Positions 21,345-56,718 of a DNA stretch of 64,000 nt are shown here, piece by piece. Positions within the stretch are counted from its first letter, which is position 1, and the number at the start of each line of letters is the position of its first letter. Source of the DNA: Nymphaea colorata (lineage: Eukaryota; Streptophyta; Magnoliopsida; Nymphaeales; Nymphaeaceae); assembly GCF_008831285.2 (NCBI RefSeq), contig NC_045146.1, forward strand, positions 11,542,972 through 11,606,971, in the 5' to 3' direction. The notes beneath the pieces were generated by a model. The model saw only the letters and a list, made by a program, of their open reading frames with translations. It had not been told where the DNA came from and did not search any database. A program made the position numbers and the translations under genes.

Positions 21345-24300
21345 CTCAAAAAATTGGGGGAAAAAACCGCGAAACTGGAGAGCGAAATCTCGCGCGCAAA
21401 AACTAGGGCAAGCACACCTCGGGAGAAGCAAAGAAAAGAAGAGGTTTTAAAAAAAACAACCTCGATGAGTTCTGGGAATAGGGTTTTCAATTAGCAGGAA
21501 GAACGGAAAGGAAGTGATGGCTGGACGGAGTGTGGGAGCGAAGGAAGGAAAGAAAGAGCGCCAAAGATCATGGCGTAGCAGAAGAAGAAGAGGATCAGTG
21601 TGGGGGATTTCTCTCAGCTCCACTTATAGGTGTTCTCTCCCTCTCTCTCTCGCTTATCAGAGTTGGATCTTGGATGTCCAACCCGGATTAGAAGCAGATC
21701 TGGGTAGGGCAGTTAATGGGTCGGGAACTCGCGATCGTATCCAATACACTGATTGACCCGAAATCTTAATAACGCGTTTGATTACCTGGATTTCAGATCC
21801 CGGGCGTCATCCGTCGTGAAGCCCGCCTCAAAATTTACGGTCTTGTTATTTTCCTTGTTTTTAACATTCATCAATTTACTTTAAATTAATAAGTTAAGAT
21901 GCATTTCTAGTAATCACGCTTATTGAAAAACCATGGATGTGAAATCAAAGGATCTTGAATCTCACCGCCTCTTATCTTAGATCAAAAACATTAAAACGGC
22001 CCTTAAAATCGAGTAGGTTGACGAAGTTTTAAACCAAATGCTATTCAATATTGTAAGTTGTAACCCCCCAACATTTGGATCCAAATGAATTTAGTTAGGT
22101 ATTGAAGCAGGGCAGACCCACCTTGGATATTGACTTCTTGAACTCTTAAATCTAATTAACCATGTGGGTAGGTGGGTGAAGCTCTAATATATATATATAT
22201 ACACACGCTTGCTTGAACTTTGAGGTCATGTTACTCGTTGACTTTTAAATCTCCTATTGGATCCAATATTTTAAAAAACAGCAGAACATGTTTTCTTTTT
22301 ATTTTTAAAATGAGCAAACCTGTAAAAGAAAAATTTCTCGACGTTGATTCACACGAAATTTAAATGCGTGTTTTCGAGTGCACACTGACATATTATATAG
22401 TTTCTGACAATTGCATGATGAACGTATAATCTTTAATTAGCTCGTGTTCCGCCCATCTAGCAAGAAACATAATGAATGTTAACCCCTTTCTTCGAGTATG
22501 AACTTGTAAATGTGCTCATCAATCATGTTGTTTTTAGTAAAAAAAAATTATGTAACTAAGTTGTCACTTTCTCTTGTTTTTAGTAAATGTGCTCGAAAGC
22601 TAGCTAGCCGATGGCGAAAAACTTGTACCATTGATTGCTAAATATTAATTAACTTACTATGCTTTGTATATAGAAACTAAGCATGGACGAGTGTGCACAC
22701 ACACACATTTTTTGTGTATGGGTAGCATGAGGCCCGTTGAAAAGTAAAAATGCCTAAGATCAAATTACCCAAAACCGATGCACTTAATTTACACTAATTA
22801 ATGATGATAGTTCTTTATAGCATTCATATTTATTTTACAATTAGACATATATTTATACTTTCATATGACTAAATATTCCAAAAAAGTTGTGAAGCATCCG
22901 TAGGCCACTCATGCAATGACATTTTTTATTTCATACCAATTTGTGCTTAAAGGCGAATTCCTTGTCTTTATGTAAAATGTTGTCAAAATTAAAGACGACC
23001 TAAGGGCATTTCATTCATTCATTAAAGAGAACATATGTGAAGATACTTTGGAAACTAAATTTGTTCCTTAGGAGGGGATAAGGATATCCGGTGATGCTGA
23101 AGCCCATCGCTACGTTTTTACTTGCCAGTTCAACATTGGTTCGGATTTGTGTAAAATTATGATTACTTTGTTCAACTTCAACTAGAGAGTAGCGTTTACC
23201 ACCATTTATAATTCAGAAGAGTAGTGTCCATAAAAACACACGATTGGGGCTTTCACCGATAGGGCAAAACCAAAGTGGGGCTGGCCCCTCAATTTTTTTT
23301 TAAATTTTAAAATAAATTTTTAAAAATTTTGTTTATCCTATATAAAAATTTTGAAAAATGATATTTCAGTCTCTACCAAAATTCTTATACTATAATCTAG
23401 CCTCTCTCATGAAAAATTACTGAATCTGCCCCTGTTCTTCGACCTACCGAGGTGGGGCTGGCCCCTCAATTTTTTTTTTAATGTTAAAAGTAAATTTTTA
23501 AAAATTTTGTTTATCCTATATAAAAATTTTGAAAAATGATATTTCGACCTCCACCAAAATTCTGATACTATAATCTAACCTCGCTCATGAAAAATGACTG
23601 CTGTTCTTAGGCCTACCAGACCTACAAGCTATACAACGCACCTTGGAGCAATTAGTTCTATGAAATTATGACGAGTTTTTAGTCAAACTTTTAAGAGAAG
23701 GGAAATTTAAATAAGAAGCTGAAAGGGTGAAGAAGAAAGTGTAGAAGTGAATTAAAGAAATGGAATTAAAATGAGGCAAGAAGAAGGAGAGTGAGCGTGT
23801 CCGTTAGTCTTCTTCGGAATAAAGAAGGCACTTTAAGTGTTATATGGTTGAACGAGGTCTCTAAGAGAGAAATTTTCCTTTTTCCAACTTAGTATTAAAG
23901 ACATGCATGCCTTTTTAATGTTAATTAGTAATGTTAATTAGCCATTTCTCTATTGTCATCCTCAAGTAGGAGCCGTGCTAATATTTTATGTATCATTCTA
24001 ATGTTATCAGATGTCTCTGAAGAGAGAGTTCCTTTTTGAGTTTCCACGTAACTACAAGAGAAGTAACCAAGATTATGACAAGAATATGCATGTATATTGA
24101 GCTGTAGACAAGAATATGCATGTATATTCAAGGTGCACAAGGGAGTGAAAGAGGGTTTTTAGTAACTAGAACACTAATTCTTTTTCATGAATATGTCCCA
24201 ATCTTTAAAACAGATCATTCATGTAATACTTTGTTACTGTCTCACTTGCTAAAAGATCCCTGAAGAGCACCATAACAACCAGCCTGCATGCCGTCTTTCA

Positions 24301-38520: not shown

Positions 38521-41373
38521 CTCAGGGTGACATGCATGAAATTTTCAAAACAATGTCATCTACACAATCACATGGATACAGCAGTTTGTGTGAATTCGAA
38601 TATGACTTGCATAAACAGGGTATATGCAGCAGGAAGAAAGATCAGAGCATCGATGTGAATTTCTAGCTCCCATTCACTCCTCTAGACAGACCAAACCAAT
38701 CACATGGGACCTATGCAACTTTTAATATACACTAAATTCACCATGCATGATCTAACCCCTCCTGCTTATTATGAAGTGAGTAATAAGAATCTCCTATAAC
38801 ATCATGTTCAAAATTCAAACCACCATGTTGGCTCGCCTTTACCTAATAAATATGAACTTCAATCCATATTTATATTTATAAATCCTATCAAGTTTCAAAA
38901 ATCTAATGCTATATGTCGCTACTAGCCCATGCAACTGCATATGATTTTTCTCGTCGTGTTCAATGTTGGACCACACTTGTATATGAAAATATTACCAATT
39001 TTTTCACCATTAAAATATTTGTTTCGAATTTTTCAAATTCCTCTATCATCTAAGAGCAAGACAATGTAATGCAACACAGGAATCCCAATGTAAGTGATGC
39101 CTCTTCCATGTTAACCATTTATCCACCATAATATAGTCTGAAGTTTTACAAAGCAACTTGCACGGTATTTTCCATGCCTACCTTTCAACAATTTGAAACC
39201 AACGTAAACATGCATAAATTGACTCTGAAACACCATTTCTCAAGTACAATTGTCTAAACATTTATAAGTTTTTGATATTTAACATTCATCAATCATCTAA
39301 TATTATACTCCATTGATATGCTCAGTGTTCCTCATATTTGCAAAAGCTCATTGATTCAACATTCCACTTTGTTTAAACTTTAACCAAGGTCAACTCTCTC
39401 AACAGATGCCATGAGAGAGACAGGAATCTTTTATTTTTAGGTCCAAAGTGGCCTACAGTTTCATAGCCCAGAAAAGCAGATATTGCAACAGCAAAAAAAA
39501 AAAATCTATGATGATGGATAACTATACGTTTCTGAATTAACTACTCTTTAGGCAAAATGTTATAGAGGAAAACTTATCATCTGACAAGGTTACAAGTGTG
39601 TGAATGTTCTTCACACTATGGATAAGAATTCTAAACTAGGTATAAAAGATGGTTTGCAAGTAGTTATTAGTAAAACTTGAAATTAAGCTGGTATTTATGA
39701 ATAAGAAGACACAGATATATAAGACCATTTGTGTTGCACATTTTATGTGTATGATATTGAAGGACATAAAGCAGTTGAAGCACTTAGAAAGGGCATTCAT
39801 GAGGCACAAAAGAGCTAAAAAAAATTTTCGTCTACAATACAAGCATAGTATGCCATCAAAACTCATATGCAAAGGAAGTTGATTCAGCAGTAAAAAAAAA
39901 AAAAAGGCACTAATCTATTGAAGCTTAAAAATACTTGCAAATGTAAACAGGAATTTTAGGTCCATGTTCGTTGGGGTAAAGTGAAATAGGTGAACATTTG
40001 CTGAAGAAGAGTGGGCTAACGTAAGTTGGCAAGACAATTCCTAGCAAGAGATGTAATAGGATATATTCTTGAAAACAATGTTACCTGTGAGGAGATAATG
40101 TTCTCATAACAATAGTACCCTGATTGATGTACACCAAATGATAGACACTACTAAGAAACTGACAATCGGATCTAGAGACACTACAAAATAAAAAGATAAG
40201 TAAATTGCTAGTTTTATCTAAAACCTATTTGTTATTCATGTGTTGCTGTACAGTCCAATAATACATTTCCTGCTTATTTTAATTTTTACCATGTGCATTT
40301 ACTTTGTACATACTTTTCATATGGTAACAACAAGAGGAGCCTTCATGACGCAAGTAGTTCGATGGCTTGGTTTTCATGCCATATAAAGCAAAGGTTCAGC
40401 AAGGTTATGAGAAAGTACAACTTGAGGAGATTCAACCACTCCTGCTATTGAATTACAGAAAGTTGGTGAAAGCAATGAACAACCGAGTAATGATGATTTG
40501 GCCCTCTTATTATCAGAATAGTGCACTCACACGGGTTGACATTGATAAGCACATTTGAGCAGAAAATTCATAGAGGGTGTCATCACAACCTCAACCTAAT
40601 AAAGACAAAGTAAAAGAAAATCAAGCACAAACAATAGTATGCAGAGTGAATTGTCCAAGAAAAATCATCTAGTTGGTTAGATGTTCAGAAGAGAACCAAA
40701 CAACAAATTAAATCATTCTTAAGACAAGGATCGACTTGCATCTTTATCACCTCATGATTAAGCATATAAGGCATCCATGTTGAGTATTCTTGACCCTTTA
40801 CTTTCTTATGCTTGGAAATGATGACATTTTTTTATGCCCTGATTTTCTAACTAAGCGTTCTGTTTTTCTAGCATGTTATGCTGTTTTATAAGGTCACCAT
40901 ATAATGTATAATTGTACAACGACATATTTAGCTAAATGAGAGACTGTTAGAATATAAACGCGGGTCTGTATATGCCATTAACCATTTGAACATTATGTGC
41001 TATCTGAGGGATATGGGATTAATGAAAAGTTCGGGATCCAACAGTAACCCTAAGAAAAAGACCTAGAAGTTCAATGCTAGTTTCATCAAAGAAGAGAATT
41101 TTAATACTGGAAAGAAAATTCCAGTACATCAAACACAACAAAAAAAAAATGGAACATGGAATTTTCATTCAGTTCCAGTTCCAACTGATATTATGCTCAT
41201 AATTCCAACGCATCGAACGCCCCAAAATAGTTCTATCTAATGTCTCTGAATATACGTGACGAACTTGGTTTAGTGCATAAGATAAGAATGTAAATAAAGG
41301 GATTGAACGCCAGTTAGAAAAGGAAATCGGTAGTAAGTGAATCCTCAATGTCATCCAGAGAAAATCCTAATAA

Positions 41374-41830
41374 GCACAAAAAGCAACGTCGGGAGTAAAT
41401 GCCCATTCGACGAACCGAACCACATAAACAGACAAAAACACAAAATTGCCAGAGATAATTCATTTCGGTGAACAATGCCAATTTCAGCATAACAAAACCC
41501 TAACTACTCATAGCACAAAAAGCAACGTAAGGAGTAAATGCCCATAACCAACCGAACCACATAAACAGACAAAAACACAAAATTGCCAGAGATAATCCAT
41601 TTCGGTGAACAATGCCAATTTCAGCATAACAAAACCCTAACTACTTATAGCAATGAGGACAGTCCTAAAGAGAGAATTCAAAGAACAAAATGAAAACATA
41701 AGCAAAATTAAACTACATTAACCCTACCCTAAGAACAATTCAAAGCATAGCAAAACCCTAACTAGTCATAGCAATGAGGACAGCCCTAAAGAAAGAATTC
41801 AAAGAACAAAATGAAACGTAAAAAACCAAA
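41374..41830. repeat. Nested tandem duplications with telo-box motifs
   Basis: A unit starting GCACAAAAAGCAACGT occurs at 41374 and 41513 (139-bp offset). The end of the second copy and its downstream sequence (AACAAAACCCTAACTACTTA, then GCAATGAGGACAG...) recur about 119 bp further on near 41743. Each unit carries AAACCCTAA. The block lies at the 3' side of the small gene ending at 41945 and may include its 3' UTR. Confidence 0.8.
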
Positions 41831-41944
41831 AGTACATTAGCTCTACCCGAAGGACCATTCAAAGAAAAGAGAGAAGAGGAAAGGGAAACCACGAACATTA
41901 GAGAAAAAAAAAGAGCCGGGGGCCCGGGGTTGGGGCACCTTTTC

Positions 41945-48217: not shown

Positions 48218-49969
48218 ATGGAGCAACTTCCAAAATGCCCAGCCAACTACGTGCCCTTGACCCCGGTGACCTTCCTACAGCGTGCGGCCAGTGCCTATGC
48301 TGACCGGACATCCATTATCTACGAGCGAGTCCGCTTCACCTGGAGGCAGACCTACGAGCGGTGCCGGCGCCTCGCCTCCTCCCTCCGCTCCCTCCATATC
48401 GGCAAGAATGACGTCGTCTCCGTCCTCGCTCCCAACATCCCCGCCATGTACGAGATGCACTTCGCCGTCCCCATGGCCGGCGCCGTGCTGAACACCATCA
48501 ATACCCGACTGGACGCCAACTCTGTGGCCACCATCCTCCGCCACTCCGAGGCCAAGCTGCTCTTCGTCGACCACCAACTCGTCCAGCTGGCCGGCGACGC
48601 AATCTTGAAGCTCCGGGAAATCGGAGAGGCTGCCGGCTGCCCGGTGCCGCCGGTGATCCTTATTGACGATCTCGACGGTCCCACCGGCTGCGCCATTGGT
48701 GCGCTGGAATACGAGGCCCTGGTCCAGGGGGGCGACCCCGAGTTCGTACCGGCGGTGCTGGAGGACGAGTGGGACCCGATTTCTCTCAATTACACCTCCG
48801 GTACCACGTCGGCGCCCAAGGGCGTGGTGTACACCCACCGTGGGGCCTACCTCAGCACCGTCAGCTTACTGCTCCATTGGGAGCTGCGGGGCTCACCTGT
48901 CTACTTGTGGACCCTGCCCATGTTCCATTGCAACGGCTGGACCTTCACGTGGGGAGTCGCCGCCCGCGGCGGCACCAACGTCTGCCTCCGCACCACCGCC
49001 GCCGCCGGCATCTTCCGGTCCATCGCCGAGCACGGCGTCACCCACATGTGCTGCGCGCCCATCGTCTTCAACATCATCCTCAACGCGGGCCCCGAGCAGC
49101 GCCGCCGGATCGACAGGCCGGTCGAGATCCTCACCGGCGGGGCCCCTCCACCGGCGGCGCTCTTGCTACAGATCGAGAAGCGAGGGTTCCACGTGACGCA
49201 CGCGTACGGCCTTACGGAGGCAACTGGGCCGGCGCTGGTGTGCGAGTGGCTGCAACAGTGGGACGAGCTGCCGACCGCGGAACGGGCACGGCTGAAGGCC
49301 AGGCAAGGCGTGGGGGTGCTCAGCCTCGCCGACGTCGATGTCAAGAATCTGGACACGATGCTCAGCGTCGCCCGCGACGGCCGAACAGTAGGTGAGATCG
49401 TCCTTCGCGGCAGCAGCATCATGAAGGGGTACCTGAAGGACCAGGCTGCAACCCAGGAAGCATTCAAGGACGGCTGGTTCCGGACAGGCGACGTGGGAGT
49501 GGTTCACAAGGATGGGTACATAGAGATCAAGGACCGGTCCAAGGACGTCATCATCTCCGGCGGCGAGAACATCAGCAGCGTCGAGATCGAGACGGTACTC
49601 TACTGCCACCCGGGTGTAGCCGAGGCTGCTGTCGTGGCAATGCCGCACCACCACTGGGGGGAGACTCCCTGTGCGTTCCTGGCATTGAGGGAGGGACACT
49701 CCAAAGAAGAAGTCGAGGAGGACAAGATGATCTCCTTCTGCAGGAAGAAACTGCCGGGTTATATGGTGCCGAAAAAGTTCGTGATCTTGCGGGAACTTCC
49801 AAAAACATCAACCGGTAAGATCCAGAAGTTCGAGCTTCGGGCCATGGCTAAGGGCTTGGCCGGCGTTGGGGAGCCCAAGAGGCTTTCATCTTTCAAGAAG
49901 CAAGCATCTCTGAAGAAGATTCAGCAGTATGACCACCACCACCAAGTGCTTGCTAGGTCTCGTTTATGA
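48218..49969 (+). CDS. Peroxisomal acyl-activating enzyme (acyl/aryl-CoA ligase, AAE family)
   Basis: An intronless 583-residue adenylate-forming enzyme. It joins a carboxylic acid to CoA through an acyl-AMP intermediate. Motifs in order: P-loop YTSGTTSAPKG (192-202), YGLTEATG (330-337), GWFRTGDVG (419-427), the hinge and A8 block IKDRSKDVIISGGENISS (437-454), and the catalytic lysine K534 in PKTSTGKIQK. The C-terminus is SRL, a type-1 peroxisomal targeting signal. The opening (MEQLPKCPANYVPLTPVTFL) and overall likeness place it in the plant AAE clade that holds AAE1/AAE11-type butyrate-CoA ligases, benzoate-CoA ligase BZO1 and petunia cinnamate-CoA ligase. The substrate cannot be read from sequence; short-chain, cinnamic or benzoic acids are all possible. 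The start is the first ATG after the TATA box. The gene is far more GC-rich than its flanks. Confidence 0.93.
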   Translation: MEQLPKCPANYVPLTPVTFLQRAASAYADRTSIIYERVRFTWRQTYERCRRLASSLRSLHIGKNDVVSVLAPNIPAMYEMHFAVPMAGAVLNTINTRLDANSVATILRHSEAKLLFVDHQLVQLAGDAILKLREIGEAAGCPVPPVILIDDLDGPTGCAIGALEYEALVQGGDPEFVPAVLEDEWDPISLNYTSGTTSAPKGVVYTHRGAYLSTVSLLLHWELRGSPVYLWTLPMFHCNGWTFTWGVAARGGTNVCLRTTAAAGIFRSIAEHGVTHMCCAPIVFNIILNAGPEQRRRIDRPVEILTGGAPPPAALLLQIEKRGFHVTHAYGLTEATGPALVCEWLQQWDELPTAERARLKARQGVGVLSLADVDVKNLDTMLSVARDGRTVGEIVLRGSSIMKGYLKDQAATQEAFKDGWFRTGDVGVVHKDGYIEIKDRSKDVIISGGENISSVEIETVLYCHPGVAEAAVVAMPHHHWGETPCAFLALREGHSKEEVEEDKMISFCRKKLPGYMVPKKFVILRELPKTSTGKIQKFELRAMAKGLAGVGEPKRLSSFKKQASLKKIQQYDHHHQVLARSRL

Positions 49970-50833
49970 AGAAATAAGGAGACTTAATTAGTAGCAGAAG
50001 TCAAATGTGTACATACATAGGTCTCTTCATGGGACTGCTAGTACTGAATTAAGTCATGAAAACGAAAGGAAGAATAGAAGGAAAGTTTGTATACGAGGGC
50101 GAATGCTATTTAACTTGTTTCTATCTCTGTACTAGTATATAGTAGTACATAGAAGATGATTGCTTGTTATTCTAAACATGCCCTTCTTGAGTTGACATGT
50201 CTCGTGCATCAAAAACTCCATGTTTCCCATGTTACAAAGAAAACCCTCTTCATGTGAATAATGTCAGTGAATTGTTACCTGTCATCCATAGAAATGTCTG
50301 GCGAACCGAGGAGAATTTATCAAAATGAGGAAAAGAAGTGACCACCTCCGTGAAATCTTGTTGTTAAAATTCTCTCTGTAGCAGTAGAAAAAAAAGTGAC
50401 AATAATTATGTGAATTTTAATATATTCTATCACCATATGTTATGGCAGTCAACCAGCAAGGCTACGTCCTGTGTTGGGAACATATGTTTGTATTTTGTAG
50501 GTAGGTTCAGGACGATGTAATTTCTCCATACTTACTCCGATTACCTGAGGGTGATTCAATTGGTCTCGAACTTGAACTAAAAGAATACCCTTTTGTACAA
50601 GTAAACAGGTTACAGAAGAAAGAAAGGAAATTGAAATGGTTATGGGACCGAATTGAAATTGTAGGACGGAGAAAGCCTTCTGAGACTACTGCACTAACAT
50701 TTCTTTCTTTTAGGTATTATTTGGCTGGCTAGATGTCTGATTCTCTTAAAAGATTTTCACTTAGAGTATATAAAAATATCAACAAAATTATATTTCAGCT
50801 CTTGTTAAAAATTTAAAACTATAATTCAGCGCC

Positions 50834-51410
50834 AGATTGGGATATGAGATTGAACTATGAAACGCTGCAATAGAAGCTTGACGTCACACTAGACTGTCTC
50901 AAGGCTTAAGAACAGAGCAGCTGCTTTGCAAGAGAGAGTGACACAGAAAACATAGTTTAGGGAAAAGTTCAGTACAACAAACAAGTTTTCTGCCGATGGT
51001 GGACAACCCATTGGCTGTGAACTCTGATAATTGTTAACAGAGGGCATCGTCAGGCGAGCATCAAACAATGAATCCCCATTCCGACGTTGGCGTTCGGTGG
51101 AGGTAGGGGGAAAAATTCCTAGCTTCACCCCTACCTCCACCGAACGCCAACGTCGGAATGGGGATTCATTGTTTGATGCTCCCCTGACGATGCCCTCTGT
51201 TAACAATTATCAGAGTTCACAGCCAATGGGTTGTCCACCATCGGCGGAAAACTTGTTTGTTGTAGTGAACTTTTCCCTAAGGCCTAAACTACGTTTTCTG
51301 TGTCACTCTCTTTTGCAACGCAGCTGCTCTGTTCTTAAGCCTTGAGACAGTCTAGTGTGACGTCAAGCTTCTATTGCAGCGTTTCATAGTTCAATCTCAT
51401 ATCCCAATCT
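50834..51410. repeat. 577-bp near-perfect inverted repeat (hairpin), 18-nt loop
   Basis: The left arm (50834-51109, 276 nt) and the reverse complement of the right arm (51128-51410, 283 nt) align end to end with six substitutions and one 7-nt insertion in the right arm, about 98% identity. The loop is 18 nt (51110-51127). The outer 90 or so bases of the arms are identical. Transcription from either side would give a fold-back RNA. Both strands show the same open frame across it (about 104 codons), a result of the symmetry. No target-site duplication is obvious at the ends, so a foldback transposon, a recent inverted duplication or a hairpin siRNA locus all remain possible. Confidence 0.9.
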
Positions 51411-52785
51411 CTCCCTATTATATGGTCTTTGTTAGTGTTAATTTCGTTGCAGAGGGTCCTTGTTCTTGCTTCTTGATCATCTGGCATGTGCCTTCTTTGT
51501 AAGATTCTTGCTGAAGAGATACTGGTTTGTCATTTTTGATGTTTTGGGGTACATGAAGTCTTCTCTCTTCCGCCTTCACAGGAAACTTCTTAATGGCGGG
51601 GATGAATATTGGCAGTTAAAATTTCAGCTTTGACATTGATTATTCCTCGATTATTGAACAATGATCCTTATTGTGGGGAGATGGCACCGAGGATTTTTTT
51701 TTCACACACACATATATAACGTGGCTTCCTTTATTTTTGCTTCCTCTTCTTGGCACCATGTGGATAATAATACAAAGTCAATATCTACCACCATTTGGAG
51801 TACATCAATCAGGGATACATGTCACAGGCAATCTTGTTTTCAAGACTATCCTAATACATCTCGTGCCAGGAAATATTTTTTGCCAACTTATGCTTCGCCA
51901 CTCTTCCTTCCCCAACAAACAAACATTCATCTATTTCACTGTACCCCCAACAATATTCCTGCAAAGATTTAGAAGTAGTATTAAACTCCAATAAGTTAGT
52001 GCCAAATTTTGTTAATGCTGAGTCGACTTCCTTCGCATAAGAGTTTTCACCATATACGATACTTGTAGATGAAAACACTATTAGCTCTTTTTGATCTGAT
52101 TTAAAATATGATCTACACATCTATTCTCGACTATTGCGCATTGGACAAACAAAATTTGGTATCTGCAGTCGATCAAGATAGCAGCGGAATAGAGAGAGAA
52201 TATGTGAATTTGAAATACTTCCAAGATGTCACTTAACACAAATTTTGCAATTCCGTTGGAAGGAAAAGTTGGAGGACCAGGTTTAGCATGCTTGCCCATA
52301 TTTGCTTTGCTAGTTTGGATGCTTAATCTTAAAGGAGCTTGGTCCCTCTCAATTCTAATAATAAGAAAACAAAAGGGCCGGTTGCCCCCCACTTTCTACT
52401 TCAATATACACGCGAAGATATTCTTTGGTGGTTGGGCACTCGTCTGTGCATCCTTTTCCAAGGACATCTCCCATGGGTCCTTGGAGATTTCGCAAATTGA
52501 ATGACATGAAAAGGGTAAGGGGTGATACCATCTGCGAGATGTCATCTTCCACTCCACGAGTACAAGTGTTTACTCAATTTTAGCATCGTAGCGCTTGTTT
52601 AAATGGCAGTCCACAGTAACAAAGAAGATAGTTACAAAAGTAAAAAAACAAAGTGGGCGCAACAGGATCAGGTCCTAGAGGTTGGAGGTGGACAGGAGGC
52701 TATTGAGCTTCCAATTCATTGTCGATGAGAGTGTGAGTGTGTATATTAAGATTACCTAGCCCTACAGTGAGCAGCTTATCAGATT

Positions 52786-53120
52786 AAGCTCCAATACATA
52801 GCATGCCAGTCCTTATGTGTCCAACTATATATATATATATATATCTGCGCAAGACTGGAAAGCTACCAATGCCTAACATTTTCCCAGGTATTCACCAAAC
52901 TAAGTTAGGAGCTCTTTGGGAAATGTTAGATTTTTTTTTTTCTTCCATACACACATTATTTGCAGCAATTAGGCAGGATATCCAAGACAAATCCAATTTA
53001 TTGACATCTCTATCCGAAAGACGACGGCGAGCTTTTGTTGAATGAGGCAATTGCAAATGCTTGATAAAAATCAAGCTCCAATACATAGCATGCCAGTCCC
53101 CATGTGTCCAACTATAAATA

Positions 53121-53155
<35 letters not shown>

Positions 53156-53372
53156 CTGGAAAGCTACCAATACGTAACATTTTCCAAGGTATTCACCAAA
53201 TTAAGTTAGGAGCTCTTTGGGAAATGTTAGATATTTTTTTTTCTTCCATACACACATTGTTTGCAGCAATTAGGCAGGATATCCAATACAAATCTGATTT
53301 ATTGACATCTCTATCCGCGAGACGACGGCGAGCTTTTATTGAATGAGGCAATTGCAAATGCTTGATAAAAAC
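52786..53372. repeat. 287-bp tandem duplication with internal (AT)n
   Basis: The sequence starting AAGCTCCAATACATAGCATG at 52786 recurs at 53073. Both copies contain an (AT)n stretch, then TACTGGAAAGCTACCAAT or a close variant, and end in GGCAATTGCAAATGCTTGAT. Identity is high outside the AT tracts, which differ in length. Confidence 0.85.
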
Positions 53373-56080: not shown

Positions 56081-56353
56081 TGTTACTGTTATTACCATTT
56101 GTTATTATTATTAATGAAAATTGATTATGGGTCAGGAAACGTATTCGAAAATGAATAGCCATCCAATTCTGGTATAAAATTTTCTCACAAATTGTTTAAA
56201 AAATATCTTTTTAGCAGAAATTTAAAAGGTCTGGCTTTTTTCTAGAATCTGTCTGTTTTTCTATATGAATAGTAAAAATTTGATAGGTGCATGATTCTTA
56301 GGTGCATGACATACAAGGACTCAACTTGTTTTTTGATCTTTGAAAATAAAAAA

Positions 56354-56718
56354 GAAAAATACAATATAAAGATATATTAGCCATCTAGCCTTAATTAATA
56401 ATCTTTTCCTTTATTTTCTCCCAATTTTTCATCTTGGAAAGATTAGCTAATAAGTTGATTCCTTATAAGTCATGAGAAAAATACAATATAAAGATATATT
56501 AGCCATCTAGCCTTGATTAATAATTTTTTCCTTTATTTTCTCTCAGTTTTTCATCTTGAAAAGATTAGCTAATAAGTTGATTCCTTATAAGTCATGAGAA
56601 AAATACAATATAAAGATATATTAGCCATCTAGCCTTAATTAATATTTTTTTTCCTTTATTTTCTTTCATTTTTCATCTTTAAAAGATCAGCTAATAAGTT
56701 GATTCCTTATAAGTCATG
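56354..56718. repeat. Three-copy minisatellite, 122-bp unit
   Basis: GAAAAATACAATATAAAGAT begins units at 56354, 56476 and 56598, exactly 122 bp apart. Each unit runs through TTAGCCATCTAGCCTT and ends GATTCCTTATAAGTCATG. The array is flanked on both sides by a GTGCATGA / CATGCACC motif (near 56286 and 56717). Confidence 0.9.

Follow-up and report, generated by a model that had tools for sequence, protein, structure and literature searches.

A young inverted repeat found once in its genome assembly, and a candidate source of hairpin siRNAs near an acyl-activating enzyme gene

Positions 50834-51410 of the window (the whole 64-kb stretch of DNA analysed here) hold two long arms that are nearly exact inverted copies of one another. 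The locus raises the question of where such a hairpin came from, whether a gene fragment or a transposon lies behind it, and what it would do if it were transcribed.

Anatomy and predicted fold of the hairpin

A near-perfect hairpin had been proposed at this place in the original prediction, and repeat search and gapped alignment returned the same arm lengths, differences and spacer. The left arm (50834-51109, plus strand; 276 nt) and the right arm (51128-51410, minus strand; 283 nt) are separated by an 18-nt spacer (51110-51127), 11 nt of which are unpaired in the fold. The right arm is an inverted copy of the left with six substitutions, located by gapped alignment at 50925/51319, 50932/51312, 50952/51292, 50972/51265, 50991/51246 and 51055/51182, and with a 7-nt stretch of its own (51281-51287). 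In this alignment 270 of the 276 aligned bases are identical, and BLAST, with the gap counted, gives 95.4%. The repeat search split the locus into an inner pair of 153-nt arms, 98% complementary and 18 nt apart (50957-51109/51128-51280), and an ungapped outer pair of 147 nt at 92% (50815-50961/51283-51429). Since CCTAA occurs twice in the region of the 7-nt stretch, a microhomology deletion in the left arm would be the simplest reading of the indel. The hairpin is the longest of the 77 inverted repeats in the window (at least 30 nt long, at most 1500 nt between arms), and among the best 25 of these 77 all the others are AT runs except one of 70 nt at 76%.

The differences between the arms are unevenly placed: positions 50925-50991 hold five of the six substitutions and the indel, and both ends of the stem are nearly perfect. 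The statistics for this clustering (five of six substitutions within 67 nt, P = 0.053; six of seven differences with the indel included, P = 0.018) were picked after inspection of the data, and no conclusion is drawn from the P values. The longest identical run between the arms, 91 nt, is ordinary (P = 0.59). The clustering could reflect gene-conversion tracts or chance.

A single strand of the locus is predicted to fold as one stem. At the loop end, three further base pairs with a 1-nt bulge leave a terminal loop of 11 nt. The RNA fold of 50820-51425 has a minimum free energy of -534.5 kcal/mol; shuffled sequences average -162, and none of 20 folds as stably (z = -42). The DNA fold of 50834-51410 gives -347.2 (0 of 100 shuffles as low, z = -62). 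The locus thus has the long near-perfect single-strand foldback that characterizes a long hpRNA or inverted-repeat locus. Perfect duplexes between the arms are formed by 148 of the 256 left-arm 21-mers and by 139 of 253 24-mers. As far as these modelled structures go, the hairpin appears structurally suited as a candidate starting point for hairpin siRNAs or for a new MIRNA gene.

None of the 15 Rfam rows obtained for the hairpin up to E = 5 (MIR5565, mir-197, mir-H1 and others) reached its gathering threshold. Membership of MIR5565 (RF04087) was rejected: its covariance match on the inner stem scored 63.6 bits on the plus strand and nearly the same, 63 bits, on the minus strand against a gathering threshold of 80, and the score comes from pairing more than from shared letters. 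Pairing likewise carries the score in the three Rfam alignments that were printed. The single match in the window at gathering strength lies elsewhere, and is to U6 snRNA (23925-24028, minus strand; 44.7 bits against a threshold of 44), possibly a pseudogene.

Reality and age of the repeat

The locus had also been predicted to be real and recent, and this reading is borne out by the six substitutions, the indel, the unrelated flanks and an arm divergence of 2.2% after correction for multiple hits. Beyond the two arms the sequences are unrelated to one another, save for a possible TATAAT pair, which counts against a mirror artefact. The genome search places both arms here as well, in the same assembly, and hence does not amount to independent proof. 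Palindromes are hard to sequence, which keeps an assembly or sequencing artefact among the explanations to be considered; a mirrored read, however, would leave neither an indel and six substitutions between the arms nor flanks that are unrelated to each other, and we regard an artefact as very improbable.

For dating we used substitution rates of 2.6, 6.5 and 13 x 10^-9 per site per year, which give point estimates of 4.2, 1.7 and 0.85 million years, respectively, with Poisson limits over the three rates of 0.31 to 9.1 million years; these values have a wide error and ignore gene conversion between the arms, which would give a younger apparent age. Two of the three transitions can be read as left-arm losses of CG to TG/CA, a change expected from methylation; the number is too small to use.

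Copy number and transposon features

A search of the genome with one arm had been suggested as a way to find a source gene or other copies. Run against the plant's own assembly (407.8 Mb in 783 contigs, the window lying within contig C9), it matched only the two arms of the locus itself. The right-arm query (51119-51405; 287 nt, covering the arm except for its final 5 nt) matched two places at E <= 0.001, both of them these arms, and the inner 153 nt matched the same two places only at E <= 10. The several to many genomic copies expected of a MITE were therefore absent for both queries in this assembly, in a search that omits very common words and scores only the best candidates (one region for each query), so that a diverged or repetitive source could escape it. 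A blastn comparison inside the window (word size 7) yielded, apart from the arms, only matches of 13-31 nt (best E = 0.014).

The locus does have terminal inverted repeats, as MITEs and foldback elements do. No target-site duplication of 2-9 bp was found directly at the repeat ends when exact repeats of at least 5 nt were scored, a length above that of TA or TWA. TGTTAA lies 25 nt outside each arm and, with its 5-nt parts, makes three overlapping matches against a background mean of 2.15, a number reached by 11 of 60 random placements; the 25 nt between TGTTAA and the arms are mostly not inverted copies. No recognisable transposon terminal motif was seen by eye in comparison with consensus ends. 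The suggestion of a foldback transposon is thus unsupported on two counts, as these searches revealed neither further copies in the assembly nor a convincing target-site duplication. A MITE family is not supported; a lone relic is possible.

Query 50800-51440 found no match in plasmid and phage collections (distant mode, E up to 0.01). A 24-nt pattern from the right arm was absent from both prokaryote genome contigs and viral contigs, and of 36 pattern matches of the right-arm frame in viral contigs tblastn confirmed none. By their description these outside collections hold bacteria, archaea and viruses, and therefore only contamination from those sources is argued against.

Search for a gene of origin

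According to the original prediction, the right arm reads as an open, protein-like frame and may stem from a captured gene fragment. Neither proposal gained support. An open run of 71 codons, the longest that the right arm contains, is not above chance: 825 of 2000 first-order Markov sequences reach this length, as do 159 of 425 tiles of the window. On a codon score trained on the genes of the window, the claimed frame (-0.124 per codon) is ordinary and is not the top of the six frames, the best of which was matched or beaten by 757 of 1000 Markov sequences. In Pfam the frame matched nothing above cut-off, and one row, HERV-K_env_2 (E = 0.049; 13.8 bits against a cut-off of 22), was taken as chance. 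Searched as a protein against its own assembly at E up to 10, the frame gave four matches, three at the hairpin locus and one on contig C6 (E = 2; 42% over 43 residues). This last match is proline-rich, its DNA similarity is confined to short words, and it appears chance-like. Nearly the same "protein" is read on both strands because the locus is a palindrome. No source for the arm DNA or the frame was found elsewhere in the assembly, and the similarity of an arm to a parental gene, extending past the target site, that marks MIRNA genes born by duplication was likewise absent from these searches.

The base composition of the arms leaves some room for a gene or a foreign sequence. At 46%, arm GC exceeds that of every one of 48 overlapping nearby noncoding tiles (mean 36%, maximum 44%), a hint that the source may have been a gene or foreign DNA, although 78 of 462 tiles of the whole window are as GC-rich. 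Such a source may have disappeared since, or may be missing from the assembly. When 21-mer targets were sought in the 64-kb window, no arm 21-mer had a match elsewhere with fewer than three mismatches.

Genomic setting and candidate promoter

The hairpin lies downstream of an intact gene for an acyl-activating enzyme (48218-49969, plus strand; AMP-binding domain in Pfam), whose stop codon is 864 nt before the left arm. In this gene TATATAAA stands 124 nt ahead of the first in-frame ATG, and the C-terminus of its product (49937-49969) reads ...ARSRL, the final SRL of which presumably resembles a peroxisomal targeting signal. On the other side, an aspartic protease gene (TAXi_N and TAXi_C domains) faces the hairpin with its 3' end, its stop codon being 3,157 nt away. 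A Myb_DNA-bind_4 protein is also encoded in the window, and the other six of the eight frames tried are without a Pfam match. The enzyme, the protease and the Myb-type protein together suggest a flowering plant as the host.

A TATA-box-like TATATAAAAA (50767-50776, plus strand) begins 67 nt before the start of the left arm and has a CA step 30 nt downstream; judged from its sequence, it is a possible Pol II promoter. The site contributes two overlapping matches to the 21 plus-strand matches of TATA type in the 64 kb, and the stretch from 49.9 to 52.5 kb has no other such match on either strand. Of all plus-strand positions 1.9%, and of all minus-strand positions 1.2%, have a TATA-type site 36-110 nt upstream, so that such sites occur by chance at one to two per cent per strand. 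The site was spotted after the fact, and is suggestive and no proof of transcription. Its closeness to the hairpin makes transcription plausible.

Direct duplications are also present in the window. At 52854-53371, 1.4 kb from the hairpin, a 217-nt stretch recurs as a direct repeat 301 nt further on at 94% identity, each copy standing just after a TA-rich run, and this constitutes a local tandem duplication. At 56353-56718 a 122-nt unit is present in three head-to-tail copies (94% matches), and further tandem duplications occupy 23275-23600 (period 178 nt) and 41373-41864 (period 121-137 nt). The duplication at 23275-23600 holds two of the three plus-strand TATATAAAAA sites of the window.

Origin and possible action

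The reading that we favour, and to which we give about an even chance of being right, is that the hairpin is a unique, young inverted duplication made in place, and that siRNAs from it, if it is transcribed, would act mainly in cis. Since the searches found a single copy and no parent, and no target-site duplication convinces, the simplest route is in-place foldback priming or template switching. A broken or stalled strand would have turned back on itself close to where the spacer is now and served as its own template, or the polymerase would have switched template, and the resulting palindrome would then have gained six substitutions and one small indel. Foldback priming is known to yield inverted duplications in yeast, which are of chromosome scale (PMC10622511), and inverted copies of mostly 5-34 bp have been described (PMC11724301). 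No precedent for an interstitial inverted duplication of 280 bp was found in the excerpts of these two papers (PMC10622511, PMC11724301), and we extend foldback priming by analogy to what may be a 280-bp interstitial copy in a plant.

Transcription could start from the TATA-like site at 50767 or come from read-through of the acyl-activating enzyme gene. The transcript would form a long near-perfect stem, which DICER-LIKE enzymes other than DCL1 would be expected to dice into a mixture of siRNAs of 21-24 nt. Their action would be chiefly in cis, through methylation of the hairpin and its surroundings, and not on a parental gene family. As no relative of the arms was detected elsewhere, an effect in cis is more likely than one in trans.

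Two alternatives would give the arms another source. Gene capture, in which a captured fragment would be on its way to a MIRNA or hpRNA locus targeting its parental gene in trans, is the route inferred for 16 Arabidopsis MIRNA loci (PMC1790633), and the GC excess of the arms over nearby noncoding tiles speaks for it. At 2.2% divergence, however, the parent should be recognisable, and none appeared either by DNA or with the frame as protein, nor did any arm 21-mer find a close target elsewhere in the window; we consider it unlikely. The two inverted arms, the short centre, the position near a gene and the TGTTAA outside each arm could be those of a MITE or foldback transposon, a lone or last copy with terminal inverted repeats reaching nearly to its centre. 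We find this improbable, as the arm queries revealed no other copy in the assembly, no terminal motif was recognised by eye against consensus ends, TGTTAA occurs at background level and most of the 25 nt between it and the arm are not inverted copies.

Two others share the inverted duplication and part over what became of it. The same event may have left an inert palindrome that was never transcribed or diced and awaits loss, a reading that we doubt but take seriously: the fold and the TATA-like site are the only functional features found, no other locus matched and the coding signal is at chance level. Against this stand the closeness of that site upstream and the finding that about 486 of 634 gene-near inverted repeats of Arabidopsis make 24-nt siRNAs (PMC12595863), which would make silence the less usual state if this plant is alike. 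It is also conceivable, if distinctly unlikely, that unique intergenic DNA gave rise de novo to a new silencing locus. It would have a TATA promoter of its own but no parental gene, and its effects would be confined to cis, on the hairpin and on the acyl-activating enzyme gene, at a time when it has yet to gain a trans target; the locus would then represent a stage before target acquisition that the gene-capture model of MIRNA birth passes over.

If siRNAs are made, the locus is a datable single-copy case of a silencing locus arising without a gene copy, and "hairpin first, target later" becomes testable across accessions with and without the hairpin; if none are made, it is an ordinary young palindrome.

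Comparison with known systems

Local inverted duplications in plants give mixed siRNAs and MIRNAs, and young MIRNA loci of the MIR163 type resemble the hairpin in their two inverted arms of low divergence and a possible promoter (PMC1790633). They differ from it in their parental gene, which was not found here with arm DNA or frame in the plant's own assembly. Gene-near inverted repeats and MITEs with 24-nt siRNAs and chromatin loops, in sunflower HaWRKY6 and in Arabidopsis, are similar in lying within 3 kb of a gene (PMC12595863). The HaWRKY6 element is a 260-bp MITE upstream of its gene (PMC12595863), whereas the hairpin studied here lies downstream, with no copies found and no convincing target-site duplication.

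The long inverted repeats of rice and the hpRNAs of maize pollen, including the Tpd1 hairpin, share with our locus a long near-perfect repeat capable of forming hpRNA (PMC7649420, PMC11390486). Its arms, of about 280 bp, compare with 1.3-7 kb in the rice examples given with coordinates (PMC7649420) and with 4,480 bp for one whole maize precursor (PMC11390486). The teosinte hairpin has its target in trans, the opposite of the cis outcome favoured here (PMC11390486). The turning of transposons into MIRNA genes has also been described (PMC3086885). Hairpin transgenes are methylated in the repeat and in the adjacent promoter, and mismatches prevent this methylation (PMC9263138). In rice, the presence or absence of long inverted repeats is associated with small-RNA levels (PMC7649420).
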